From Vicinamibacteria bacterium (GTDB lineage Bacteria > Acidobacteriota > Vicinamibacteria > Vicinamibacterales > UBA8438): a stretch of 64,000 bases of DNA. The notes beneath the pieces are model-generated. The model saw nothing but the letters and a program-made list of their open reading frames with translations. It had not been told where the DNA came from and ran no database searches. The position numbers and the translations under genes were made by a program. The stretch covers positions 1 through 64,000 of the forward strand of contig JAJEFC010000015.1 in assembly GCA_022820675.1 (NCBI GenBank), read 5' to 3'. Of this stretch, positions 1,271 through 15,662 are shown in pieces (position 1 is the first letter of the stretch; each line of letters begins with the position of its first letter).

Positions 1271-2725
1271 TCAGTCGGCGGCGCCGGGCATGGGCGGCGC
1301 CTCGTCGAACCCGCCGCCGAGCGCGAGATACAGGTCCACCCGGTTCTCGAGCCGTTGCCGGCGGGCCGCGATGAGGTCCCCTTCCGCCTGCAGCGCGAGC
1401 CGCTGCGATTCGAGCACCGTGATGTAGTCGTCGAGCCCCGTCCGGTAGCGGTCGTCGGCGATGATCTCCGCCGCGCGCGACTGCTCGGCCGAGATCGCGA
1501 GGTAGCGTTCGCGTGCGAGGAGGTACTCCTCGGCCGCGAGCGCCGTCTCCACCTCCGAGAACGCCTGGAGGGCGGTGTTGGCGTAGATGGCCAGCTCTTC
1601 CGCCGCGCGGGCCTCGGCGCGGTCGACGGCGGCGCGCAGGCGCCCCCCCTGCAGCAACGGCTGGATCACGTTGCCGAGCAGGGTCCACACGCCGAAGTCC
1701 CGCTTGACGAGGTCCTGCAGGGCGCCGGTGGCGGTGCCGGTGTTCGCGGTCAGGCTGATGCGCGGGTAGAGGTCGCGTTGCGCCACCCGCAGGCGCTGCC
1801 GGGCCGCGGCGATGCGACGCTCGGCCGCCACGAGGTCGGGGCGGCGCCGCACCAGCTCGGCTGGGAGCCCGCCGGGAATCGTCGCCGGCGTGTCGGGCAG
1901 GTCGGACGGCATCGCGATCGACCCCGTCGCGTAGAGGCCCATGAGGACCTCGAGCTGCCGGATGGCGGCGTCGAACTGCTGCCCCCGCTGCTCGCGGAGC
2001 GCTTCCGCGTTGGCGAGGTTGGAGAGGGCCAGGCGCACGTCGAGGGCCGGCCTCAGGCCCTCCTCGAACCGCTCGCGGACCTGCTCGGCCGAGGCCCGGA
2101 AGCTGGCCACCGTGGCCTCGGCGAGCCGGAGCTGCTGCTGGGCCTCGGCAATCGCGAACCACGCCTTCGTCGTCTGGCCGGCGAGGGAGAGCTGGGCGGC
2201 GCGCAGGTCGGCGGCCCGCGACTGCAGGTCGGCGAGCGCGGCCCGAGCGCCGGCGCGCAGCCGCCCCCACAGGTCGGCCTCCCAGGTCAGGTCCAGCGAG
2301 ACCCCGTAGTTCGTGAAGACGGTGCTGAGCACGCGGTCCTCGGCCCCGGGAATGGGGAACCCGATGAAGTTCTGCTTGCGCTGCGATCCGTTCAGGCCCA
2401 CCTGGAGCTGGGGCTGGAGGTCGGCCCCCGCGACCCGCGAGTCGGCCAGGGCCTGCTCGAGCCGGGACGCCGCCGCCTGCAGGTCGTAGTTCTGCCGGAG
2501 CGCCGACTCCACGACGACGTCGAGGGCGGGGTCGCCGAAGTCGGTCCACCACGTCAGGGCGGGGCCGCCGCCGGTGTCGGCGCGGGCGGTCCACGTCGGC
2601 GGGACGTCGCCACCGAGCGCGGGATGGTCCTCGAGCGGGGCGGTGGCGCACCCGGTCGCGAACAGGAGCAGGCCGAGCGCGCCGCCCGCCCCGTGGAGGA
2701 ACCGTGTCCTGGTCTCTGCCGCCAT
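1271..2725 (-). CDS. Outer-membrane efflux lipoprotein, NodT/TolC-like
   Basis: Outer-membrane channel of the same RND exporter. The ATG at 2725 gives 484 residues, the usual size for NodT-type factors. A lipoprotein signal ends in the lipobox LFATGC with Cys26 as the likely lipidated residue, followed by the two repeated helical halves of outer-membrane efflux proteins (DLQAAASRLEQALADSRVAG near the start, then LEVLMGLY and RRPDLVAAERRIAAARQRL). The frame stays open upstream of 2725 but that stretch is Arg-rich and unlike a protein, so the lipobox decides the start. It is the first gene of the operon that continues into the adaptor. Confidence 0.9.
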   Translation of the reverse strand: MAAETRTRFLHGAGGALGLLLFATGCATAPLEDHPALGGDVPPTWTARADTGGGPALTWWTDFGDPALDVVVESALRQNYDLQAAASRLEQALADSRVAGADLQPQLQVGLNGSQRKQNFIGFPIPGAEDRVLSTVFTNYGVSLDLTWEADLWGRLRAGARAALADLQSRAADLRAAQLSLAGQTTKAWFAIAEAQQQLRLAEATVASFRASAEQVRERFEEGLRPALDVRLALSNLANAEALREQRGQQFDAAIRQLEVLMGLYATGSIAMPSDLPDTPATIPGGLPAELVRRRPDLVAAERRIAAARQRLRVAQRDLYPRISLTANTGTATGALQDLVKRDFGVWTLLGNVIQPLLQGGRLRAAVDRAEARAAEELAIYANTALQAFSEVETALAAEEYLLARERYLAISAEQSRAAEIIADDRYRTGLDDYITVLESQRLALQAEGDLIAARRQRLENRVDLYLALGGGFDEAPPMPGAAD

Positions 2726-2878
2726 GGTGTATCGCGGGACGTGGCGCCGCCGGAAGGCCGCCGAATGCCCCTCATCAGAGATCATACCGCGTCGGCGCCC
2801 GGGAAGTTCCGCGGCGTCGCGAGGCCGTGCGCCGGTGCGGCGGGGCCGGAACCGCCGGTCTTCCGGGCGAAGAATCAG

Positions 2879-2907
2879 TTGAATCCTGATTGCGACCCCG
2901 GTATTCT
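2879..2907 (+). promoter_or_regulatory. Candidate sigma-70-type promoter for the cytochrome b gene
   Basis: TTGAAT at 2879-2884 and TATTCT at 2902-2907 are separated by exactly 17 bp in the 384-bp divergent gap between the efflux operon and the cytochrome b gene. The start codon at 3110 would leave a leader of about 200 nt. This is pattern matching only; nothing else recognisable is in the gap. Confidence 0.3.
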
Positions 2908-3109
2908 TCAAGCCCGTAGCTGTTCGGCGAGCGGCTGGGCGGTGCGTGTCGCCCCGCCGCCCGCGGCCATCGCCCGTCCGGTGCACCGCATCGGGGAGGC
3001 GGGCCGCGGGGAGGGGGGCCTGCGGATCACGCACCGGCACATGGACCCGCTGTGCATCGGTGGCGGCGCGCCGCCGTCCATGAACGGGTCGCATCACGAG
3101 GGCGCAATC

Positions 3110-4015
3110 ATGGATCTGTTTCAGTACGGGACCGACCCCTGGGGACAAGAGATCATCATCCGGCTCGCGTGGGGCTTGCTGACCCTGTCGTTCTGGGCCG
3201 GTATCGGCTTCGTCGTGTTTCATGCCGTCTACGCGGTGGTGTGGAAGCCGCGGGTCGAGCCTGAGGAAGCGTCGGCCGCGGCCGACGCCGCCATTCCCGA
3301 GAAGATCGTGCGCCACACCGGCGCCGCCCGGATGTTCCACTGGGTGATGGCGGCGGCGATGATCGCGCTCCTCATCACCGGCTTCTTCCCCATCGTGGGG
3401 CTCGAGTTCAGTTGGCTGACCATCCACTGGGTGTCGGGCCTGATCCTGATCCTGTGCATCGTCTACCACATCGTGCACGCCTCCTTCTTCCTCGACTTCT
3501 GGTCGATCTGGATTCTTCCCCGCGACCTGAAGGAGGCGGTCCAGCGCACCCAGCGCCAGCTCGGGGCCACCGTCGCCATCGACAAGCACGGCAAGTACCC
3601 GCTCGACCACAAGCTCTACCACCTCGCCGTCACGATCTTCGGCCTCGTGGTCTCCGTCACCGGGCTGGTGATGATGTTCAAGATCGACAACCCGATCGTG
3701 CCGATGAACGAGATGCTCTTCTCGGGCGCGGCCATGGGGAACGACCAGGCCTGGGGCATCGTTTATGCCACGCACGGCTTCTCGGCGGTGTTGTTCGTGA
3801 TGCTCACCATCACCCACATCTACTTCGCCATCCGGCCCGAGAAGCTGTGGATCACCAAGTCGATGGTCTTCGGGACGGTGAGCCGCGAGGACTACCTCGC
3901 GCATCACAGCCCGCAGCGGTGGGACGTCACCCCGCCCAAGCCGAAGGCCAAGCCCCCGGCGCCGGCTCCCGCGGCGGCCGCGCCTCCGCCGGCCCAGAGT
4001 CAACCCGCGTCGTAG
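3110..4015 (+). CDS. Cytochrome b/b6-domain membrane protein (formate dehydrogenase gamma/b561-like)
   Basis: Integral membrane diheme-type cytochrome b, 301 residues, expected to pass electrons between a periplasmic dehydrogenase and the quinone pool. There are five hydrophobic helices: one near residues 16-45, a pair after FHWVMA, and two more after the loop near residue 160. Candidate heme histidines lie in FHWV, HWVSG, YHIVHA, THGFS and THIYF, the pattern of formate dehydrogenase gamma subunits. The tail after residue 270 is a Pro/Ala-rich extension. The ATG at 3110 is preceded by GAGGG; an upstream in-frame ATG at 3080 has no ribosome site. No dehydrogenase subunit is adjacent, so the redox partner is unknown. 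Confidence 0.85.
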   Translation: MDLFQYGTDPWGQEIIIRLAWGLLTLSFWAGIGFVVFHAVYAVVWKPRVEPEEASAAADAAIPEKIVRHTGAARMFHWVMAAAMIALLITGFFPIVGLEFSWLTIHWVSGLILILCIVYHIVHASFFLDFWSIWILPRDLKEAVQRTQRQLGATVAIDKHGKYPLDHKLYHLAVTIFGLVVSVTGLVMMFKIDNPIVPMNEMLFSGAAMGNDQAWGIVYATHGFSAVLFVMLTITHIYFAIRPEKLWITKSMVFGTVSREDYLAHHSPQRWDVTPPKPKAKPPAPAPAAAAPPPAQSQPAS

Positions 4016-5572: not shown

Positions 5573-5720
5573 ACGTCGGTCCCCGCGCGGCGGTTGATGG
5601 CCGCCCACATCTTCACCAGGGGCTTGATGGGCGTCAGGCCTCACGGCGACTTCGCGCAGCCGGCAGGCCACCGGGTTCATCGCTCCCATGATGCGCGTCG
5701 TCCGGCGCCACTGCGGGCCG
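5573..5720 (-). pseudogene. Relic copy of the 3' end of an FAD-dependent monooxygenase gene
   Basis: This stretch closely matches the last part of the monooxygenase pseudogene at 8806-9435 (same order from CTGACGTCGGTCCCCGCGCG to GATGCGCGTCGTCCGG), with several substitutions and short insertions that break the frame. The remainder of the 5427-5753 gap holds no other recognisable gene. Confidence 0.6.
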
Positions 5721-5753
5721 TAGCAGGTCGCTCGTGGGCCGGGCTCTGGACGG

Positions 5754-6632
5754 CTACGACGTGACGGTGACGTTCACATAGCCATTCGTCCAGCAGCACT
5801 GGTTGCCGGCGGAGCTGTCGACCCGGCCGAAGCTGTCGGCGCGCACACGGATCACGTACTCGCCCGGCTGCTGGAAGGTCGCAGTCGTGGTCACCATCCC
5901 CTCTGTCTCGGCGATCGGCTCCGTGTGCGGGCTGAAGACCACCGCGCCCGGACCGGCATGCTTGAACCAGGTCACGTTCAGCGCCGCGGTGTCGCCCCGC
6001 CGTCTGACCGGGAGCGGTTCTTCGTCCCGCACGCTGTCATCATGGATCCAGACCGTCAGCGAAAGCGGCGTGTCCACCGACGCGCGCATCGGCTCCGCGT
6101 CGATCCCGGTGGGACCCCGGCCGGCAGGGCCGTCGGGGCTGAAGCGGACCAGTGGGGGCTGCGACCCCATGGCCATCGGCCATCGGAGCTGGTAGGCACC
6201 GGTCTTGGCGCTTCCAGGCACGGAGAAGGTCCGTTCCTGGTTGACCAGGGTCCAGACGACGTCGCCGCTGAAGCTGGCCGGCACGGTCACGGTGAACACC
6301 CCCCGCTCCCGGTCTCGCCGGCGCGTGCGCGTGGCGCCCTCACGCACGACAGGCGGGAACGACGTGGGTTGCCGGCCGTCGAACTCCGCCGGTTCGATGA
6401 AGTTGTCAGGACCCAGGGGAATCTCCACGACCTCGGTCAGGTTGAGGTTGGAATAGCCGAACGACAGGGTGACGGTTCCATCCGGATTCCGGTACCAGCC
6501 GTCGAAGAACGGGGCCACCCGAAGTCCGTTCGGCGGCAGCGGGGTAAGTGGTCGTTGTCGCTGGGCCCCCAGCGATGTGGAGCCGATGAGCATTGCGGCT
6601 GCGAGGCCGCCTGCGAGCCATCGTCCGAGCAC
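5754..6632 (-). CDS. Exported hypothetical beta-sandwich protein
   Basis: About 292 residues with an N-terminal signal (GRWLAGGLAAAMLIGSTSLGAQ) and a mature part rich in beta strands (GWYRNPDGTVTLSFGYSNLN; a late Ig-like part with FQQPGEYVIRVRA). I do not recognise a catalytic family. Start choice: the ATG at 6647 overlaps the sequence GGAGGG, which would be an ideal ribosome site for the GTG at 6632 (seven-base spacing), so I prefer the GTG. It lies downstream of the cytochrome c/monooxygenase gene on the same strand, with a strong hairpin between them. Confidence 0.7.
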   Translation of the reverse strand: MLGRWLAGGLAAAMLIGSTSLGAQRQRPLTPLPPNGLRVAPFFDGWYRNPDGTVTLSFGYSNLNLTEVVEIPLGPDNFIEPAEFDGRQPTSFPPVVREGATRTRRRDRERGVFTVTVPASFSGDVVWTLVNQERTFSVPGSAKTGAYQLRWPMAMGSQPPLVRFSPDGPAGRGPTGIDAEPMRASVDTPLSLTVWIHDDSVRDEEPLPVRRRGDTAALNVTWFKHAGPGAVVFSPHTEPIAETEGMVTTTATFQQPGEYVIRVRADSFGRVDSSAGNQCCWTNGYVNVTVTS

Positions 6633-6663
6633 TGGCGTTCCCTCCATCAACGCGTTGCCGCCG

Positions 6664-6703
6664 AAAAGCGAGAGAGCCTCTCGATACCGAGAGGCTCTCT
6701 CGC
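6664..6703 (-). terminator. Intrinsic terminator, perfect 16-bp stem
   Basis: A perfect inverted repeat (6668-6683 and 6688-6703, four-base loop) is followed on the minus strand by TTTT. It lies 31 bp after the stop of the cytochrome c/monooxygenase gene and before the start of the next gene, so it should end or reduce transcription between them. Confidence 0.75.
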
Positions 6704-6733
6704 CACAGACCAATTCCGCACGTCTCCGTGCTG

Positions 6734-8092
6734 CTACTCCTCGTTGTCCGTCTGCTGGCGACTCTCCCGCTCGGCCACCAGACGCTCGTAGCCCTCGTCG
6801 TCGAGATGCGTCACGGCGATCCATGCATGCGACATCTCGTCCGCCGTACGGCTGCCCGGTCCCACCCACTGATTCGGGTCGGGGTTCTGCGGGTTCCCGG
6901 CCGTATTGTCGTAGTAGCCGGTGATCACCAGGACGGACCCCGCCGGGACGAGGGGTGCGGCGTCTTCTGCGTAGATGTGACTGGTGTGCCAGTCGTTGGT
7001 CCAGTTGGACACCGAGCTCACCATCTCCAGCTCGCCCGTCTTCGGATGGAAGAGCTCAAGAGTCTTGCCCACCAGACGGAAGTGACCGTGCGGTTGGAAG
7101 CTGTCGATCCGCACCGGGGTCTCGAAGGAATGGAACCCCTGCGTCATCGCCGTGCCATGCGGTGGGAGCTCGAGCTCGCTGCCCTTCATCAGCAGGGAAT
7201 ACAGCTTGAGATCCTGTTGGTATTGCACCTGCTCCTGATGGCCCTCCGGGTAGAGCCACACGCCCATCTCGACCACGTCGTTCTCGATGACCTCGCCGGT
7301 CGGATAGTAGTGGACGTCCCAACTGACCATCGAGTCGGCCGGGAGGAGACGACAGGCGTCCTCCGGAACGATCTCGCCGACCTTCCCGAGCGCGTACTCG
7401 GAGAGCCGCTCGACCTGGACCCACTCCCCGCTCTCCTCGTCGAAACCGAGCACCTGGCTGTTGGCGTGGTGCGCGGCGGCGCGCCCCTCGGGCGACGGCT
7501 TGACGGAGACCGCCTTGAGGCACCGGTCCTCGGTCAGGCCGGTCGGCACGATCGGCCGCCACCAGACGTCCGACCCATCGGCCGCCAGCGTGTACGGCTT
7601 CGTCCGGATCACCAGGTCCGGCGGGCCGAACTCATCCGCATAGGCCCACTCGCTGAGATCCGGAAACGACAGCGGCGGCGGAAGATCGGCCGGGTCGCCA
7701 GGGGGTGCCCCGTCGTCCACCCAGCGGGCTATCGTCTCGATTTCGGACAGGCTCAGCCGGAGGTCGTCCTTCAGCTCCTGAATCCCGATGTCGCGGTCGT
7801 ATCGATAGGGCGGCATCTCGCCCGTTACCACGCGCTGCTTGATCGACCGAGCCCAGGGGCGCACTTCCTGGTAGGTCGTGAGCGACATCGGGCCGATCGA
7901 GCCGGGCCGGTGGCACTGCTGGCAGTTGCTCTGGAAAATCGGGGCGATGTCCCGAGCGAAGGTCACCGCGGGCGCGTCGCCGGGCGATTGGGCCGCCGCG
8001 GGCGCGCCCCAGGTCACACTGAGGACAGCGACCCCAAGACTCCAGGCAACCACCCGGCCGCCCGACGAAGCGTGGAGGGGAATGTTCAGCAT
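6734..8092 (-). CDS. Exported c-type cytochrome fused to a copper type II monooxygenase-like domain
   Basis: 452 residues. The start at 8092 (MLNIPLHAS) is chosen because GAGAGGTG precedes it; the ATG at 8131 lacks a site. A signal peptide ends near PAAAQ. Residues about 45-120 hold one heme-binding motif CQQCH, with a distal Met in the GPMSL or GEMPP area. The C-terminal two-thirds contain WDVHYYPTG and PHGHFRLVGK, His pairs that resemble the copper sites of ascorbate-dependent peptidyl/dopamine monooxygenases. I infer a periplasmic oxidoreductase in which the heme domain supplies electrons to the copper domain; the substrate is unknown. The heme motif is certain, the copper-domain call moderate. 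Confidence 0.75.
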   Translation of the reverse strand: MLNIPLHASSGGRVVAWSLGVAVLSVTWGAPAAAQSPGDAPAVTFARDIAPIFQSNCQQCHRPGSIGPMSLTTYQEVRPWARSIKQRVVTGEMPPYRYDRDIGIQELKDDLRLSLSEIETIARWVDDGAPPGDPADLPPPLSFPDLSEWAYADEFGPPDLVIRTKPYTLAADGSDVWWRPIVPTGLTEDRCLKAVSVKPSPEGRAAAHHANSQVLGFDEESGEWVQVERLSEYALGKVGEIVPEDACRLLPADSMVSWDVHYYPTGEVIENDVVEMGVWLYPEGHQEQVQYQQDLKLYSLLMKGSELELPPHGTAMTQGFHSFETPVRIDSFQPHGHFRLVGKTLELFHPKTGELEMVSSVSNWTNDWHTSHIYAEDAAPLVPAGSVLVITGYYDNTAGNPQNPDPNQWVGPGSRTADEMSHAWIAVTHLDDEGYERLVAERESRQQTDNEE

Positions 8093-8397
8093 AACGACAC
8101 CTCTCAGGACACCCTGGTTCCGAACGCACATCCTACTACAGAATGTCCGTCCCGGGCGAGTTCTCGATTCGTGGCCGCTGGGCCGGCAACCCCGTCGGTC
8201 AGCTCAAGCCAATGGCAGGTTTAGCTGCTTGGCGCTCACAAGCTACTGACTACACAGGGTTTACGGCAAACAGGCTGTCCGTGCTTCCCTCGTTGTTCCC
8301 CTCATTGCACGCGGGACCCTGCGGGACCCTTGCGGTCGTCCGCGGGACGCCACTGCTCGCTGCGTCCGACCCGAATGGGGTGTGCTGACCAACGCGT
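8093..8397. other. Intergenic, nothing recognised
   Basis: About 300 bp between the cytochrome/monooxygenase gene and a small minus-strand ORF. I see no convincing coding frame or RNA; it should include the promoter of the minus-strand gene starting at 8092. Confidence 0.4.
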
Positions 8398-8667
8398 TCA
8401 GCACGGATTCTGGAGCATCTCCGTGGCGAGAGCGTCGGCGAGTTGCTGGCGTTCCCTGCGGAGCAAGCGAATCTCCGCTTCGAGGGCCGAGACCTGGCCC
8501 AAGACCTCCGACGCCGTACGGGGAGTCGCCGTCGCGAGCATGAACGGGTTCGTGTCGTTGCCAGCGACCTCGCTGACCTCGGCTGGCGTGAGCTTCCGGA
8601 TGATGTCGCGGAGGCGCTCGTCGCCGGTCCGGTCAGGAAGCGTTTCGCGGAGCCCTTCGCCTGCCAT
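8398..8667 (-). CDS. Small hypothetical protein with C-terminal coiled coil
   Basis: 89 residues from the ATG at 8667. The last 35 residues (SEVLGQVSALEAEIRLLRRE and beyond) have a regular hydrophobic heptad pattern and probably form a coiled coil. The first half resembles a short helical segment (DERLRDIIRKLTPAEVSEVA). There is no signal peptide and the family is unknown. It sits between two damaged or unrelated genes, so it may itself be a fragment. Confidence 0.4.
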   Translation of the reverse strand: MAGEGLRETLPDRTGDERLRDIIRKLTPAEVSEVAGNDTNPFMLATATPRTASEVLGQVSALEAEIRLLRRERQQLADALATEMLQNPC

Positions 8668-8805
8668 GCTGCGATGACGATCTGGTCACGAGCTGCGGGA
8701 TCCTGGACCCGATCGACCCGCCGCCTCGATGACTGGATGAAGAGGGATCACCATCCGCCGATTGCCGGAGTGCTGACCGGACCCTTGGGCGGGGCGACTC
8801 TGACA

Positions 8806-9435
8806 CTACCGGCTGACGTCGGTCCCCGCGCGGCGATTGATGGCCGCCCACATCTTGACCAGCGGCGTGATCGGCGCCAGCCGCACGGCGACTTCGCGCC
8901 GGCAGGCCACCGGGTTCGTCGTTCCCATGATGCGCGCCGTCCGGCGCCCCTGGGCCACCAGGACCGCGGTCTTCTCGCGCCGGTCGCGCTCGTACGCCCG
9001 CAACGCGTCGCCGACGTTCCCGTTCTCGCCGAGCGCCTTCCCGAGCGCCACCGCGTCGACCATCGCCTGCGCCGCCCCCTGGCCGGTGTGCGGCAGCACC
9101 GGGTGGGCCGCGTCCCCGAGCAGCGTGACGGCGCCCTTGCCCCAGAACGGCAGCGGGTCGCGATCGACGAGCTCGTCGACGCGCATGTCGGTGGTCCCCG
9201 AGGTCACGGCGCGGAACGTCTCATCGAACCGCGGCGACACGTGCCTCAGAATCGCCGCCGGATCGTCCCGCATGCCGACCGGCACCAACTCCTGCGCCAG
9301 CCCGAGCCCCCAATAGATGCCGGTGTCGCTCGCCCGGACCAGGAACGATTCCACCCCTCGCCCCATGTTGCGGAGAGCGATGGCAGCCGACAGGCCGCCG
9401 ATGCCGGCGCCGACGATGAGCGCCGTGCGCGTCAT
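8806..9435 (-). pseudogene. Internally deleted FAD-dependent monooxygenase
   Basis: Flavoprotein hydroxylase family (UbiH/salicylate-hydroxylase-like). The ATG at 9435 opens with the dinucleotide-binding motif GAGIGGLSAAIALR, and the second FAD motif GDAAHPVLPHTGQGAAQAM is present. Only 209 residues remain, against about 380-400 in the family. The sequence jumps from residue about 26 (NMGRGVESFLVR) straight into the substrate domain, so roughly half the protein, including the middle of the FAD domain, is gone although the frame is kept. It is unlikely to be active. A copy of its 3' end lies at 5573-5720. Confidence 0.75.
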
Positions 9436-9696
9436 CTCCCGGGTCCTTCGCGCGGTGACCCGGGTGCTGTTCCCCAACCGACATGCCGCCGGTTGCGGCG
9501 GCGGTGGTCAACGCGTCCGCAGGGACGCCGAGCAATCGCGTGGTCGCGGCCGTGGTGGTCACGGTCGTCGGCGGGCGACGCCGAGCATCGCGTGGTAGCA
9601 TGCTGTGATGTCCGATGCTGCCGGCCTTGCGCAGCATCCTGGCATCCCGCGAACCGGCAGTCGCGCCGGCACCAAGGGGAGGCTTGAGCGCCTGTC

Positions 9697-11034
9697 GTGA
9701 GTATCCCCGTGATTGCGCCGGCTACGCAAACCGGCCCCCTGAGCGCCCCGGAACGGAATCGTCTCAGGCCCGAAGACCGCGCCGGTCACGGCTGGTACCG
9801 CTTCGTCCTCTCCTTCCCGTCGCACCTCGTACGAGACTACCTCCGCGCGTTCAGGGTGGACTCGCAGCAGAGGGTGCTCGACCCGTTCTGCGGCACCGGA
9901 ACGACACTGGTCGAGTGCAAGAAGCTCGGCATCCCGAGCGTCGGGATCGAGCGCAACCCCATGGCCGGCTTCGCGAGCCGTACCAAGCTGGACTGGAGCG
10001 TCGATCCCGGCAGGCTCGTTTCCCACGCCAAGGAAATCGCCGGACTGGCGCTCGACCGGCTCCGCCGCGAGGGAATCGACGACTTCGGGCCGGCACCCCT
10101 GTTTCGGGCGGAACCCCCGCCAATCGCGGGCCTGCGCACGTTGCCGCCCGAGCGCCTGAGCCTGCTTCTGAAGAACTCGATCAGCCCGCTGCCGCTTCAC
10201 AAGACGCTGCTGCTGCTGGACGCTCTGGAGGAGCATCGCGACGACACGTTCCACGCTCTCGAGCGGCTCGCGCTCGCGTCCGCATTGGTCTCGGACATCG
10301 GCAACCTGCATTTCGGCCCGGAGGTCGGTGTCGGCCGCATTCGGGAGGACGCGGCGGTCGTCGGTCCGTGGCTGGATCGCGTCAGGGCGATGGCGGATGA
10401 CCTTGCCTCCTTGCGGAAACGGGCCGCCACCGAGGCCGCCGTCCACCTTGCGGACGCGCGCCGGCTCGAGGACTTCCTGGAGCCCTCGTCCGTCGATGCC
10501 GTCATCACGTCGCCGCCGTACCCCAACGAGAAGGACTACACGCGAACGACGCGGCTCGAGAGCGTGCTGCTCGGCTTCGTCCGGGACAAGCAGGATCTGC
10601 GCGGCTTGAAGCAGGGACTCGTTCGATCGAATACCCGAAGCGTGTACAAGGCCGACGCCGACGACGCCCTCGTCGCCGATCACGCGGGCATTCAGCGCAT
10701 CGCCCGGCTCATCGAAGAGCGACGCATCGAGCTGGGCAAGACCTCGGGTTTCGAGCGCCAGTATGCGCGAGTCACGAAGCTGTACTTCGGCGGCATGGTC
10801 CGGCATCTCGCCGGCCTCCGGAGCCGGCTGCGTCCCGGTGCGAGACTCGCCTACGTTGTCGGAGACCAGGCATCGTACCTGCGGGTCATGATCCGGACCG
10901 GCGAGATTCTCGGCGAGCTGGCCCGGTCACTCGGCTACGAGCTGACGGCCATCGACTTGTTCAGGACGCGGATCGCGACGGCCAGCCGGCAACAGCTTCG
11001 CGAAGAGGTCGTCCGACTCCGCTGGCCCGGTTGA
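9697..11034 (+). CDS. DNA methyltransferase of the N4-cytosine/N6-adenine class
   Basis: 445 residues from a GTG start. The S-adenosylmethionine motif I (LDPFCGTGTTLVECKKLG, residues about 61-78) comes before the catalytic motif IV (TSPPYPNEKDYTR, about residue 270), an order seen in gamma-type amino-methyltransferases. TSPPY points to exocyclic amino methylation. The long segment between the motifs may hold the target-recognition region. Its stop codon overlaps a possible TTG start of the next gene (TTGA), and an endonuclease-like gene follows, so this is the modification half of a type II restriction-modification pair. It appears intact, unlike its two neighbours. Confidence 0.85.
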   Translation: MSIPVIAPATQTGPLSAPERNRLRPEDRAGHGWYRFVLSFPSHLVRDYLRAFRVDSQQRVLDPFCGTGTTLVECKKLGIPSVGIERNPMAGFASRTKLDWSVDPGRLVSHAKEIAGLALDRLRREGIDDFGPAPLFRAEPPPIAGLRTLPPERLSLLLKNSISPLPLHKTLLLLDALEEHRDDTFHALERLALASALVSDIGNLHFGPEVGVGRIREDAAVVGPWLDRVRAMADDLASLRKRAATEAAVHLADARRLEDFLEPSSVDAVITSPPYPNEKDYTRTTRLESVLLGFVRDKQDLRGLKQGLVRSNTRSVYKADADDALVADHAGIQRIARLIEERRIELGKTSGFERQYARVTKLYFGGMVRHLAGLRSRLRPGARLAYVVGDQASYLRVMIRTGEILGELARSLGYELTAIDLFRTRIATASRQQLREEVVRLRWPG

Positions 11035-11054
11035 CCCCGACACGGCCGTTCCTC

Positions 11055-11845
11055 ATGTCCAAGCCGAACGTGTACGCCGCGATCATCGAGGAGATCTTCG
11101 AATCGAAGTTCAAGAAGGGGATGACCCGAGTCGATTTCGAGAGATCCGACATCACGGCAGCCGCCGATCGGCGAGGCGTTCCGCGCCCGAGCAACGTCGG
11201 TGACGTCGTCTACAGCGCACGGTATCGGGGGAGCATTCCGGAGTCCGTGCAGTCCACGGCCACCCGCGGCCGTGAGTGGATCATTCGCGGTACGGGACCG
11301 GGGCGGTACAGCTTCGTCCTGACCCGGCCGATTCGTCTGGCCCCAACGAGCAAATGGGAGCCACCAAGGTTCCCGACGCCACCCCGGGCGTCGTCGCGAT
11401 GCATGCGCTCAACGACGAGCAAGCCCTGCTGGCCGTAGTGCGGTACAATCGCCTCATCGACATCTTCACGGGGATCACGTGCTACTCGTTGCAGAATCAT
11501 CTCCGGACGGCCGTGCGTGGCATCGGGCAGGTCGAGACGGACGAACTGTACGTGGGAGTCGACACGAAGGGTTGCCAGTACGTCGTCCCGGTGCAGGCCA
11601 AAGGCGGGAGAGACGAGCTGAACATCGTGCAGATCGAGCAGGACATGGCGCTGTGCGAATCCAGGTTCCCCGATCTCGTCTGCCGCCCCGTCGCGGCGCA
11701 GTTCATGCAGGACGACGTGATTGCGCTTTTCGCGTTCGAGAAGATCGATGGCGATGTAAAGGTCCTCATGGAACGCCACTACAGATTGGTGGAACCCAGC
11801 GAACTCACGGCTGAAGACTTGGCCACGTACAAGAAACGTACATGA
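11055..11845 (+). pseudogene. Type II restriction endonuclease-like gene with one frameshift
   Basis: The first frame (from ATG 11055: MSKPNVYAAIIEEIFESKF) runs to RPIRLAP. The protein then clearly continues in another frame (NEQMGATKVPDATPGVVAMH) from about 11345 to the stop at 11845. Inserting one base in the CCCC run near 11342 joins the two halves into about 263 residues. The second half carries a PD-(D/E)xK-like core with a Gln variant: GVDTKGCQYVVPVQAKGG. It directly follows the methyltransferase and would be its cognate nuclease. The break is in a homopolymer, so a sequencing or assembly error is possible. Confidence 0.7.
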
Positions 11846-11898: not shown

Positions 11899-13252
11899 TC
11901 AATCACTGAGGCCAAGGGCGTCCAAGGTGGCTTCAGGATCCACCCGGACTCCTCTGGGTCGACTACGCCCGAGGACAAGCGATCGGCGGTCGCCAAGAGA
12001 CTCGGTGAGGAAAGCTCTGAGCTGTGAGGATGATGTCCCACGCGTCCCGATCCAACCGTCGCGTACAAGGTCTGCAAAGAGCGTGTTCGTCAGGTGCCTG
12101 GCCACGTTTTTGGGAGAAATTATCCGACCGTCCCGAGGACCGCTGAACGTCGAGTCTGCCAGTGCTGCCTCGACAAAAAGCCGTGGCAAATACATTCCAG
12201 GTAACAACTCGCTCGATAGTGGCTCGACTTGCATTCGCCGACACAGTTTGAAATAGAACCCATCTCCGCATAGCCGGTAACTGCTGTGTCCATGTTTGAT
12301 GTGCCAGTCATCGGGTTCGTCAGTGCGGAACCGGTCCATTTTCTTCAGAGCTTCATCAAATGCTGGATCCACGCGGTAGATCCCATCTTTCGTCCGGAAA
12401 TCACCTTCCAAGAGCTTGTATTGGACGAGTGTCCAGGCATCAAATGCATCGTTGAGATAGATCAGGTCAACGCCGAGCTCCTCTTCAATGCTGTGACGGT
12501 TCACGTTGAAGACCTCAAGCGTACGGTTCCCCATATCGAACACCGCGCCAGCTACGGTGAACTGAACTTGGCGCGCGCCAGTGAATGAAGTGGTGTCCCT
12601 TGCGATCAACTGGTCCTCTATTGTCCGTACTGTTGGCAGTCCATCAAGGAAGGATTTCAACCTGTCGGTAGCACGAGGAGGGTCCCACGCTTCCAGTACG
12701 CGGTTTCGCAGACGTCTTGATCTGTCGAACATGTCCAGGATGAGACCAGATGAGACCCGTGGCATCGCGTTGCTGGTTCACGATCTCGACGCCGGCTCGG
12801 GTCGTTGGCTCTCGGCTCCTATCTCGTAGACTCTCGAGTCGGTCAAGGGCGTCACGGGACGCGGGGTCAAATTCACGGAGGGCGTCCTTCAGAGCCTGCC
12901 AACTGGCCGGTGGTACTCGGCCACCCATGCCTGAGCGGGCGCGGACAATATGTTGTCGAATAGCAGAGTCTATTCGCTTCTCTATTTCGATAAGTGGTAC
13001 CTTCGTACGAGTGATGTTCGTGAACTCGACATGTACTTTGCCGGTAGCAACCCGACGTGTGCTGCGGGCGAGGGACCAATGGGTGATGATGTCCCTTTCG
13101 AATAGGAGCCCACAGACTTCCCGCTCCTTGAGCGGCCAGTCAGCGCTACTCAAGGCGTCGGAGAAGCCGTTCTCTATCCCCCGAACGTTGCGCAGAAGGT
13201 CGGTACGTTGCTCTTCGTCGAACTGGATCAGGAAACCGTGGATGTCGGGCAT
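11899..13252 (-). pseudogene. Nuclease-like defence-associated gene broken by a 10-bp duplication
   Basis: The gene starts at ATG 13252 (MPDIHGFLIQFDEEQRTDLL). The frame is lost at about 12750 and the protein resumes in another frame (ILDMFDRSRRLRNRVLEAW) to the stop at 11899. Removing one copy of the tandem 10-mer at 12739-12758 restores a single frame of 447 residues exactly. The C-terminal half contains GVDLIYLNDAFDAWTLVQYK, resembling the D...(E/Q)xK core of PD-(D/E)xK nucleases. I do not recognise the family. It converges on the restriction-modification pair with only 53 bp between stops and is AT-richer than its neighbours, suggesting it arrived with them. Confidence 0.65.
12739..12758. 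repeat. 10-bp tandem duplication causing a frameshift
   Basis: GATGAGACCA followed directly by GATGAGACCC inside the nuclease-like gene. Deleting one unit joins the two halves of the reading frame, so the duplication is the evident cause of the break. Confidence 0.85.
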
Positions 13253-15308: not shown

Positions 15309-15662
15309 ATGAACATGAACATCAGGTGGCCGTCTGCCGACGCCATGTGGATTATCGGCGCGCTGATCGCGGTCACGGTGCTGATCGACGGCCACTTCGA
15401 CGAGGTGGACCGGCGCTTCGACGAGGTGAACACCCGCATCGACGACGTGAACCAGCGCATCGACGACGTGAACGCCTCCCTGAACGCCCGCATCGACGAC
15501 GTGAACGCCACTCTGACCGCCCGCATCGGTGACTTGAACGCCCGCATCGACGACGTGAACGCCCGCATCGACGGCGTGAACGCCCGCATCGACGTCATCG
15601 CCGCCGACCAGCGCGCCCTGCGGCAGGCGGTCCTCGATCACCAGCACGTGCCCGGCGGCTAG
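15309..15662 (+). CDS. Membrane-anchored heptad-repeat coiled-coil protein
   Basis: 117 residues. A hydrophobic segment (MWIIGALIAVTVLI, residues 13-26) is followed by about 75 residues of nearly perfect heptads of the type RIDDVNA/RFDEVNT, which must form a long parallel coiled coil. The short tail (AADQRALRQAVLDHQHVPGG) is not repetitive. The DNA of the repeat is itself tandem (CGCATCGACGACGTGAACGC units), so length variation by slippage is likely. No enzyme domain is present; a structural or tethering role is inferred. It lies divergently from the PQQ dehydrogenase and converges on the ABC exporter. Confidence 0.75.
   Translation: MNMNIRWPSADAMWIIGALIAVTVLIDGHFDEVDRRFDEVNTRIDDVNQRIDDVNASLNARIDDVNATLTARIGDLNARIDDVNARIDGVNARIDVIAADQRALRQAVLDHQHVPGG

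Follow-up and report, generated by a model that had tools for sequence, protein, structure and literature searches.

At the locus described here a gene that is split into two reading frames lies on the minus strand and faces a type II methyltransferase and restriction enzyme pair on the plus strand. The window, by which we mean the whole stretch of 64,000 nucleotides that was analysed (contig JAJEFC010000015.1 of a Vicinamibacteria bacterium), contains the following features in this region:

8806-9477, minus strand: FAD-dependent monooxygenase, apparently internally deleted and located beyond the methyltransferase as seen from the broken gene (comparison with relatives)
9697..11034, plus strand: intact type II DNA methyltransferase (N6_N4_Mtase, PF01555, E 1.3e-10; PADLOC MTase_II PDLC03224)
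11031..11438, plus strand: restriction enzyme, first part, broken frame (PADLOC REase_II PDLC03404, profile positions 2-100 of 260)
11276..11845, plus strand: restriction enzyme, second part, in another frame (PDLC03404, profile positions 96-259 of 260, E 9e-80)
11899..12765, minus strand: 288-aa frame of the broken gene (P0002), which encodes the C-terminal part and the predicted PD-(D/E)XK nuclease domain in it (model and VIA-align)
12415..12423, minus strand: invariant Q115-Y116-K117 of P0002, the QxK (alignment)
12466..12468, minus strand: invariant D100 of P0002, the D of D...QxK (alignment)
12484..12486, minus strand: invariant E94 of P0002 (alignment)
12595..12618, minus strand: predicted first helix of the nuclease core, with E50 and D51 nearly invariant and D57 invariant (P0002; alignment and model)
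about 12740-12759, minus strand: near-perfect 10-bp tandem duplication that breaks the frame (sequence)
12644..13252, minus strand: 202-aa frame of the broken gene, which encodes the N-terminal part (P0001; blastp to residues 1-181 of the homologue L018, 54%)
12818..13252, minus strand: putative PUA-like domain of the EVE/ASCH/YTH fold, with approximate limits taken from residues 2-148 of the L018 model (VIA-align)

P0001 and P0002 lie in different reading frames, and the genuine similarity of the 202-aa frame to the family stops near its residue 177. P0002 aligns by blastp to residues 163-447 of L018 (54% identity), and both halves match consecutive stretches of one intact protein of ~447 aa with about 52-54% identity, which rules out a chance open reading frame. 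Because both halves align to single intact homologues such as L018, the join of the frames can be regarded as a true one, and the tandem duplication is situated at the spot where both frames should join. A preliminary description made from the letters alone had proposed a 447-residue protein after repair of one 10-bp duplication, and the two frames indeed fit successive parts of homologues of this length. Its remarks on the setting of the gene are borne out as well: the GC content is 0.53-0.59 over 12000-13250 compared to 0.62-0.73 in the surroundings, and a gap of 53 bp separates the end of the gene from that of the restriction enzyme frame (11845), the two being convergent. Absent from that description were the N-terminal PUA-like domain and the breakage of both this gene copy and the adjoining restriction enzyme gene.

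A second acidobacterial member of the family, L036 (the same sequence as L002; Acidobacteria gp7 AA8, about 7500-8800), is also split in two frames, and for this reason a programmed frameshift was considered. We reject it, as 74 of the best 80 of at least 163 relatives are encoded in a single frame, as the break in L036 sits elsewhere in its gene, and as the break in the window is a plain tandem duplication. The gene in the window is probably an inactive, disabled copy of a widespread unnamed defence-nuclease family. An assembly error may also have caused the frame breaks in this gene and in the restriction enzyme.

The restriction enzyme next to the gene is probably dead too. It is present in 8 of the 297 genomes of the phylum, the window's own counted, and in the seven other genomes its relatives have longer open frames (268-780 codons). 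Because the enzyme is split in two frames while the methyltransferase is intact, the latter may now be an orphan. The monooxygenase matches only residues 7-40 (weakly) and 291-366 of a 402-aa relative (relatives 402-410 aa), and it looks internally deleted because only these two pieces match. Given three damaged genes beside one intact methyltransferase, the island seems to be decaying. Further along the window (15309-15662, plus strand) a short protein is encoded which consists largely of a repeated ARIDDVN-like unit and is probably a coiled coil.

It had been suggested in the preliminary description that the gene encodes an undescribed defence protein carried with the type II pair. The tie to the pair did not survive comparison: the family gene was found within the ~1.5-kb flanks of the restriction enzyme relatives in none of the seven other genomes of the phylum, and the recurrent partners of the family do not include the type II pair of the window. 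Because none of these seven relatives adjoins a family gene, the proximity of gene and pair in the window is of the general defence-island sort. The other half of the suggestion stands, as the fold, the invariant residues and the defence neighbours described below point to an undescribed nuclease-like type of defence protein. The interest lies in the family rather than in the locus of the window.

A scan of 84,980 species genomes yielded at least 163 relatives, the best 80 of which were kept. The 74 uninterrupted frames among these 80 encode roughly 430-500 aa, and the six other loci are broken (L036), short (L041, L042, L090) or run off the contig end (L065, L067). Ten of 72,556 plasmid records contain a match; no match was found in a phage collection of 50,697 records, nor in viral contigs, which were searched with single-sequence patterns only. 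Among the best 80 of at least 163 relatives both halves of the window protein are closest (about 50-54%) to a clade mainly of Burkholderiales records, and in the tree the protein falls within this clade (8 rows, support 100) and has a long terminal branch (1.09). The placement and the long branch point to horizontal transfer and to accelerated change in the lineage of the window. A Chloroflexota-labelled member of the same clade, which is almost identical to a Piscinibacter sequence, may be a binning error. More generally, practically identical proteins occur under different taxon labels in L013/L015 (Chloroflexota, Piscinibacter) and L067/L068 (Myxococcales, Accumulibacter), probably as binning errors or after very recent transfer. 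At L043 (about 5600-8771; Gammaproteobacterium AqS3) two family members share a contig, separated by a few hundred bases. A housekeeping gene, the outcome that would have spoken against the preliminary description, is ruled out: three of the 297 genomes of the phylum carry a family gene, the window's own counted, and the neighbours are defence genes.

The C-terminal part was modelled from the window's own P0002 (mean pLDDT 80.7). The best 17 rows obtained with VIA-align are all PD-(D/E)XK nucleases (Z 8.6-7.2), as are most of the lower rows. RecU (1rzn, Z 8.6, rmsd 3.5, 132 aligned) and Hjc (2eo0, Z 8.2, rmsd 3.5, 121 aligned) lead the list, accompanied by D212, I-Ssp6803I and the SPARDA nuclease and then by NhoI, PvuII, SwaI and DpnI. 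Unrelated Rep15 rows reach Z 7.1-6.8 in the same list, showing the height which unexpected rows can attain, and Foldseek returned no E below 0.18 for this model. Models that match nothing typically reach a best Z of 7 to 8, and it is the coherence of the list and the invariant residues alone that raise the fold calls. Because Foldseek and the profile comparisons gave nothing significant, the fold assignments rest on structure, list coherence and residue conservation.

The possible D...QxK core (GVDLIYLN...LVQYK) picked out in the preliminary description proved to be the most conserved stretch of the family, with D, E, G, D, L, Y, Q, Y and K invariant in 70 of 70 full-length members. When redundancy is removed, D216, E253, G257, D259, L260, Y262, Q274, Y275, K276, R325, K334 and G401 (numbers of L018) are invariant in 57/57 members, and the window copy retains all twelve. 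The model shows an alpha-beta core as in the PD-(D/E)XK superfamily, and the conserved acidic residue and the (D/E/Q)xK motif are likewise found (E253, D259, Q274, K276; 57/57). We consider it well supported by the modelling that the C-terminal half has a PD-(D/E)XK nuclease fold of the Hjc/RecU type with a predicted E...D...QxK active site; a structure lacking a nuclease fold would have contradicted the preliminary description.

For the N-terminal half the intact homologue L018 was modelled in full (mean pLDDT 79.7). EVE, ASCH and YTH domains fill nearly all of the first 44 VIA-align rows for its residues 2-148, with 1zce as the best (Z 9.2, rmsd 3.4, 127 aligned), followed by 2eve (Z 8.5, rmsd 2.8, 111 aligned) and the ASCH domain 5guq (Z 8.2, rmsd 3.0, 110 aligned). 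The beta-barrel with a helix after strand 1 that characterizes the PUA-like fold is present, and this agreement is at the level of the fold only. Foldseek on the L018 model gave a best E of 0.053 and thus none below 0.05, and a viral structure library gave no match below E 0.058, its first row being an ASCH-type protein. In its modelled structure the N-terminal half has a PUA-like fold as in the EVE/ASCH/YTH base readers, and a helical connector lies between it and the nuclease domain. Among the 57 non-redundant members no residue of the N-domain is invariant and no aromatic cage or clear conserved aromatic pocket is seen; conservation is highest at G66, T71 and R75 and weaker at F31 and H59.

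The 70 full-length members were compared with Pfam, NCBIfam, PADLOC and PHROGs, and no named family is matched consistently by them in these libraries. Two single-member matches in Pfam, weak and scattered PADLOC matches (JetB 3, HamB 1) and one of 70 members matching in PHROGs were judged to be chance, and NCBIfam gave 0 matches among the 70. Membership in EVE or Mrr by sequence is ruled out: neither the EVE profile PF01878 (0/70 at E 0.01) nor the Mrr_cat profile PF04471 (0/70) matches any member, and the profile-profile comparisons by hhalign with 23 EVE domains and with Mrr are not significant. ASCH examples from which a profile could have been made were present in 3 of 60 genomes, which is too few. 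A sequence-profile search of the PDB returned only Apolipoprotein A-I noise at E 0.09, and no description of the family was found in the literature searched. An unnamed family of defence nucleases is real and is of an already known general kind.

The preliminary description had also raised the question whether homologues sit beside methyltransferases or other defence genes, and this is the case in BREX, type I RM, Gabija and other loci. When representatives were annotated with PADLOC the recurrent neighbours were BrxC, PglXI, BrxHI, SIR2, HerA, GajA, GajB, the restriction, methylase and specificity subunits of type I systems and PDC-S14; DUF6119 was recognized as a neighbour by Pfam and the record annotation. 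Within BREX loci the family gene comes after BrxC, SIR2 and HerA, in that order, and is followed by a gene of ~220 aa or directly by PglXI, with gaps of 0, -4 or -8 bp. The family gene stands directly after HsdS in L016, L017, L075 and L079 and directly before GajA in L025, L034, L040 and L046, and true Gabija genes are present at L083 and L088, two loci examined further. Other defence-like neighbours are PDC-S68 (L052), PDC-S11 (L018), a HEC-03B-like gene (L019) and a type IIG-like enzyme (L028). The type I RM operons of L075, L079 and L074 hold PDC-S14 together with the family gene beside HsdS and thereby two accessory genes per operon. A protein of ~560-600 aa (cluster c42) without a PADLOC match is common to L017 (8873-10552, type I RM) and L027 (about 2130-3940, BREX).

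Counted by cluster, a defence gene lies within about 8 kb in 36 of the 80 loci (the best 80 of at least 163) and in 24 of 61 groups formed at 80% identity. These clusters are BREX (12 loci), Gabija/OLD-type (10), type I (9), DUF6119 (6) and SIR2-HerA (6), so that BREX genes lie near 12 of these best 80 and the family is not confined to BREX loci as a core component would be. In a tblastn search in which one locus was left out at a time, a defence partner was detected in 33 of the same 80 loci compared to 0 of 60 control stretches of 16.8 kb; the partner profiles were drawn from the test loci themselves, and the controls came from six Acidobacteriota genomes and hence from the phylum of the window, not from that of most loci. 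The 47 loci without the tested recurrent partners include some on contigs that end early, and L013, L015, L019, L028 and L052 have other defence-like neighbours. The link of the family to defence is well supported.

The partners are clustered on the tree yet have been repeatedly exchanged. Four partner labels require at least 8 changes on the tree compared to 18.0 in shuffles, the minimum being 3. Near-identical members are found in different contexts, L074/L075/L079 with type I RM and L072/L076/L078/L086 with DUF6119, and of the near-identical pair L025 and L026 only the first is accompanied by Gabija genes.

How do the intact members act? We infer that they cleave DNA, sense modification and take part in phage defence. 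The explanation we prefer, to which we give an even chance, is that the family is an accessory, type IV-like (modification-sensing) nuclease composed of a PUA-like domain, a connector and a PD-(D/E)XK domain, and portable among defence systems. Intact members would be accessory nucleases that move between systems based on modification or on nucleases, such as BREX, type I RM, Gabija and others. The PUA-like domain would dock on a modified or otherwise marked base of the incoming DNA and the PD-(D/E)XK domain would then cut nearby, so that phages whose modified DNA escapes BREX or RM would still be attacked. The whole of this explanation, including that the locus of the window is a recently broken copy of an unnamed, ~450-aa defence-associated endonuclease family, seems to us about evenly balanced. 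More tentative is the broader proposal of one plug-in module reading DNA modification that is swapped among BREX, type I RM, Gabija and others as a second line against phages with modified DNA. Gabija is not known to depend on modification, and therefore modification sensing does not explain the pairing with Gabija.

The Gabija loci among the partners are better accommodated by a different, possible but doubtful, explanation: the protein would still be an accessory nuclease of BREX, RM and Gabija loci, its PUA-like domain would bind ordinary DNA, RNA or a partner protein rather than read modified bases, and inhibition of the main system would call the enzyme into action as a backup or abortive effector. 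An N-domain without a conserved aromatic pocket and without sequence kinship to EVE would also fit, and there are precedents, as standalone PD-(D/E)XK enzymes in BREX loci are generally proposed to be auxiliary or backup effectors in passages of a BREX survey (PMC12839542) and as HhiV4I has a PUA-like domain which is not its modification sensor, according to a passage in PMC11037411. This explanation has to contend with the dominance of base-reader domains in the fold list of the N-domain and with the pattern of conservation, since D, E, D, Q and K of the nuclease are invariant in 57/57 members but the N-domain differs from member to member, which is what one expects of a specificity domain.

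It is improbable that defence islands and plasmids carry the gene as independent cargo that has no functional tie to the genes around it. The frequent change of partners, the loci without a recognized partner and the pair L025/L026 would be expected of cargo; the tight packing of the BREX operons (gaps 0, -4, -8 bp), which is kept across several genera, and one BREX clade of 8 rows on the tree would not. Least probable is a catalytically dead PD-(D/E)XK-like fold that serves as a binding domain. It is brought to mind by the Q in place of the usual acidic residue of (D/E)xK, and is opposed by the invariance of E, D, Q and K in 57/57 members. Moreover, there are Mrr-type nucleases with a Q-x-K active site.

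Although none of the four libraries searched annotates the family, its genes are embedded in operons of several defence systems that have been studied in depth. Should the protein prove to be a modification-sensing nuclease, this would account for the way in which BREX and type I loci deal with phages that escape them through modified DNA, and it would provide a testable part for these systems as well as a new enzyme for the mapping of modified bases.

Several known systems resemble the preferred modification-sensing nuclease. Modification-dependent enzymes are known in which a sensor of the PUA superfamily is fused to a nuclease (passages in PMC7897488 and PMC11037411), and MspJI, PvuRts1I and YTH-McrB are precedents (PMC11037411, same passages). 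With the type IV enzymes MspJI, PvuRts1I, EVE-HNH VcaM4I and YTH-McrB the family shares, judged by fold, a PUA-like domain and an endonuclease in one chain as well as the occurrence in defence loci. In contrast to these enzymes the sensor-like domain of the family is N-terminal, its predicted nuclease is Hjc/RecU-like with QxK, and there is no sequence match to EVE. The core fold, the order of helices and strands and the D...QxK are like those of Hjc/RecU resolvases and Mrr-type nucleases (VIA-align Z up to 8.6), whereas the Mrr_cat profile does not match and the context is one of defence rather than housekeeping. The same general plan is found in YTH/EVE-like domains fused to PD(D/E)XK nucleases, which were found from the Thermococcus YTH domain and are mentioned in one sentence of PMC7641849; these proteins may belong to the present family. 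BREX and the type IV enzyme BrxU on one plasmid confer complementary protection, as stated in a passage of PMC8565348, and provide the precedent for a family member that would back up its partner system against evading phages. Like BrxU/GmrSD (PMC8565348) and the auxiliary PD-(D/E)XK effectors of BREX (PMC12839542) the members in BREX loci are standalone nucleases inside or beside the core genes. The architecture of a PUA-like and a PD-(D/E)XK domain is not named in the consulted part of the text of the BREX survey (PMC12839542), whose supplementary list may hold the BREX-embedded members. Unlike the auxiliary effectors of BREX, the family has members in type I RM and Gabija loci as well.
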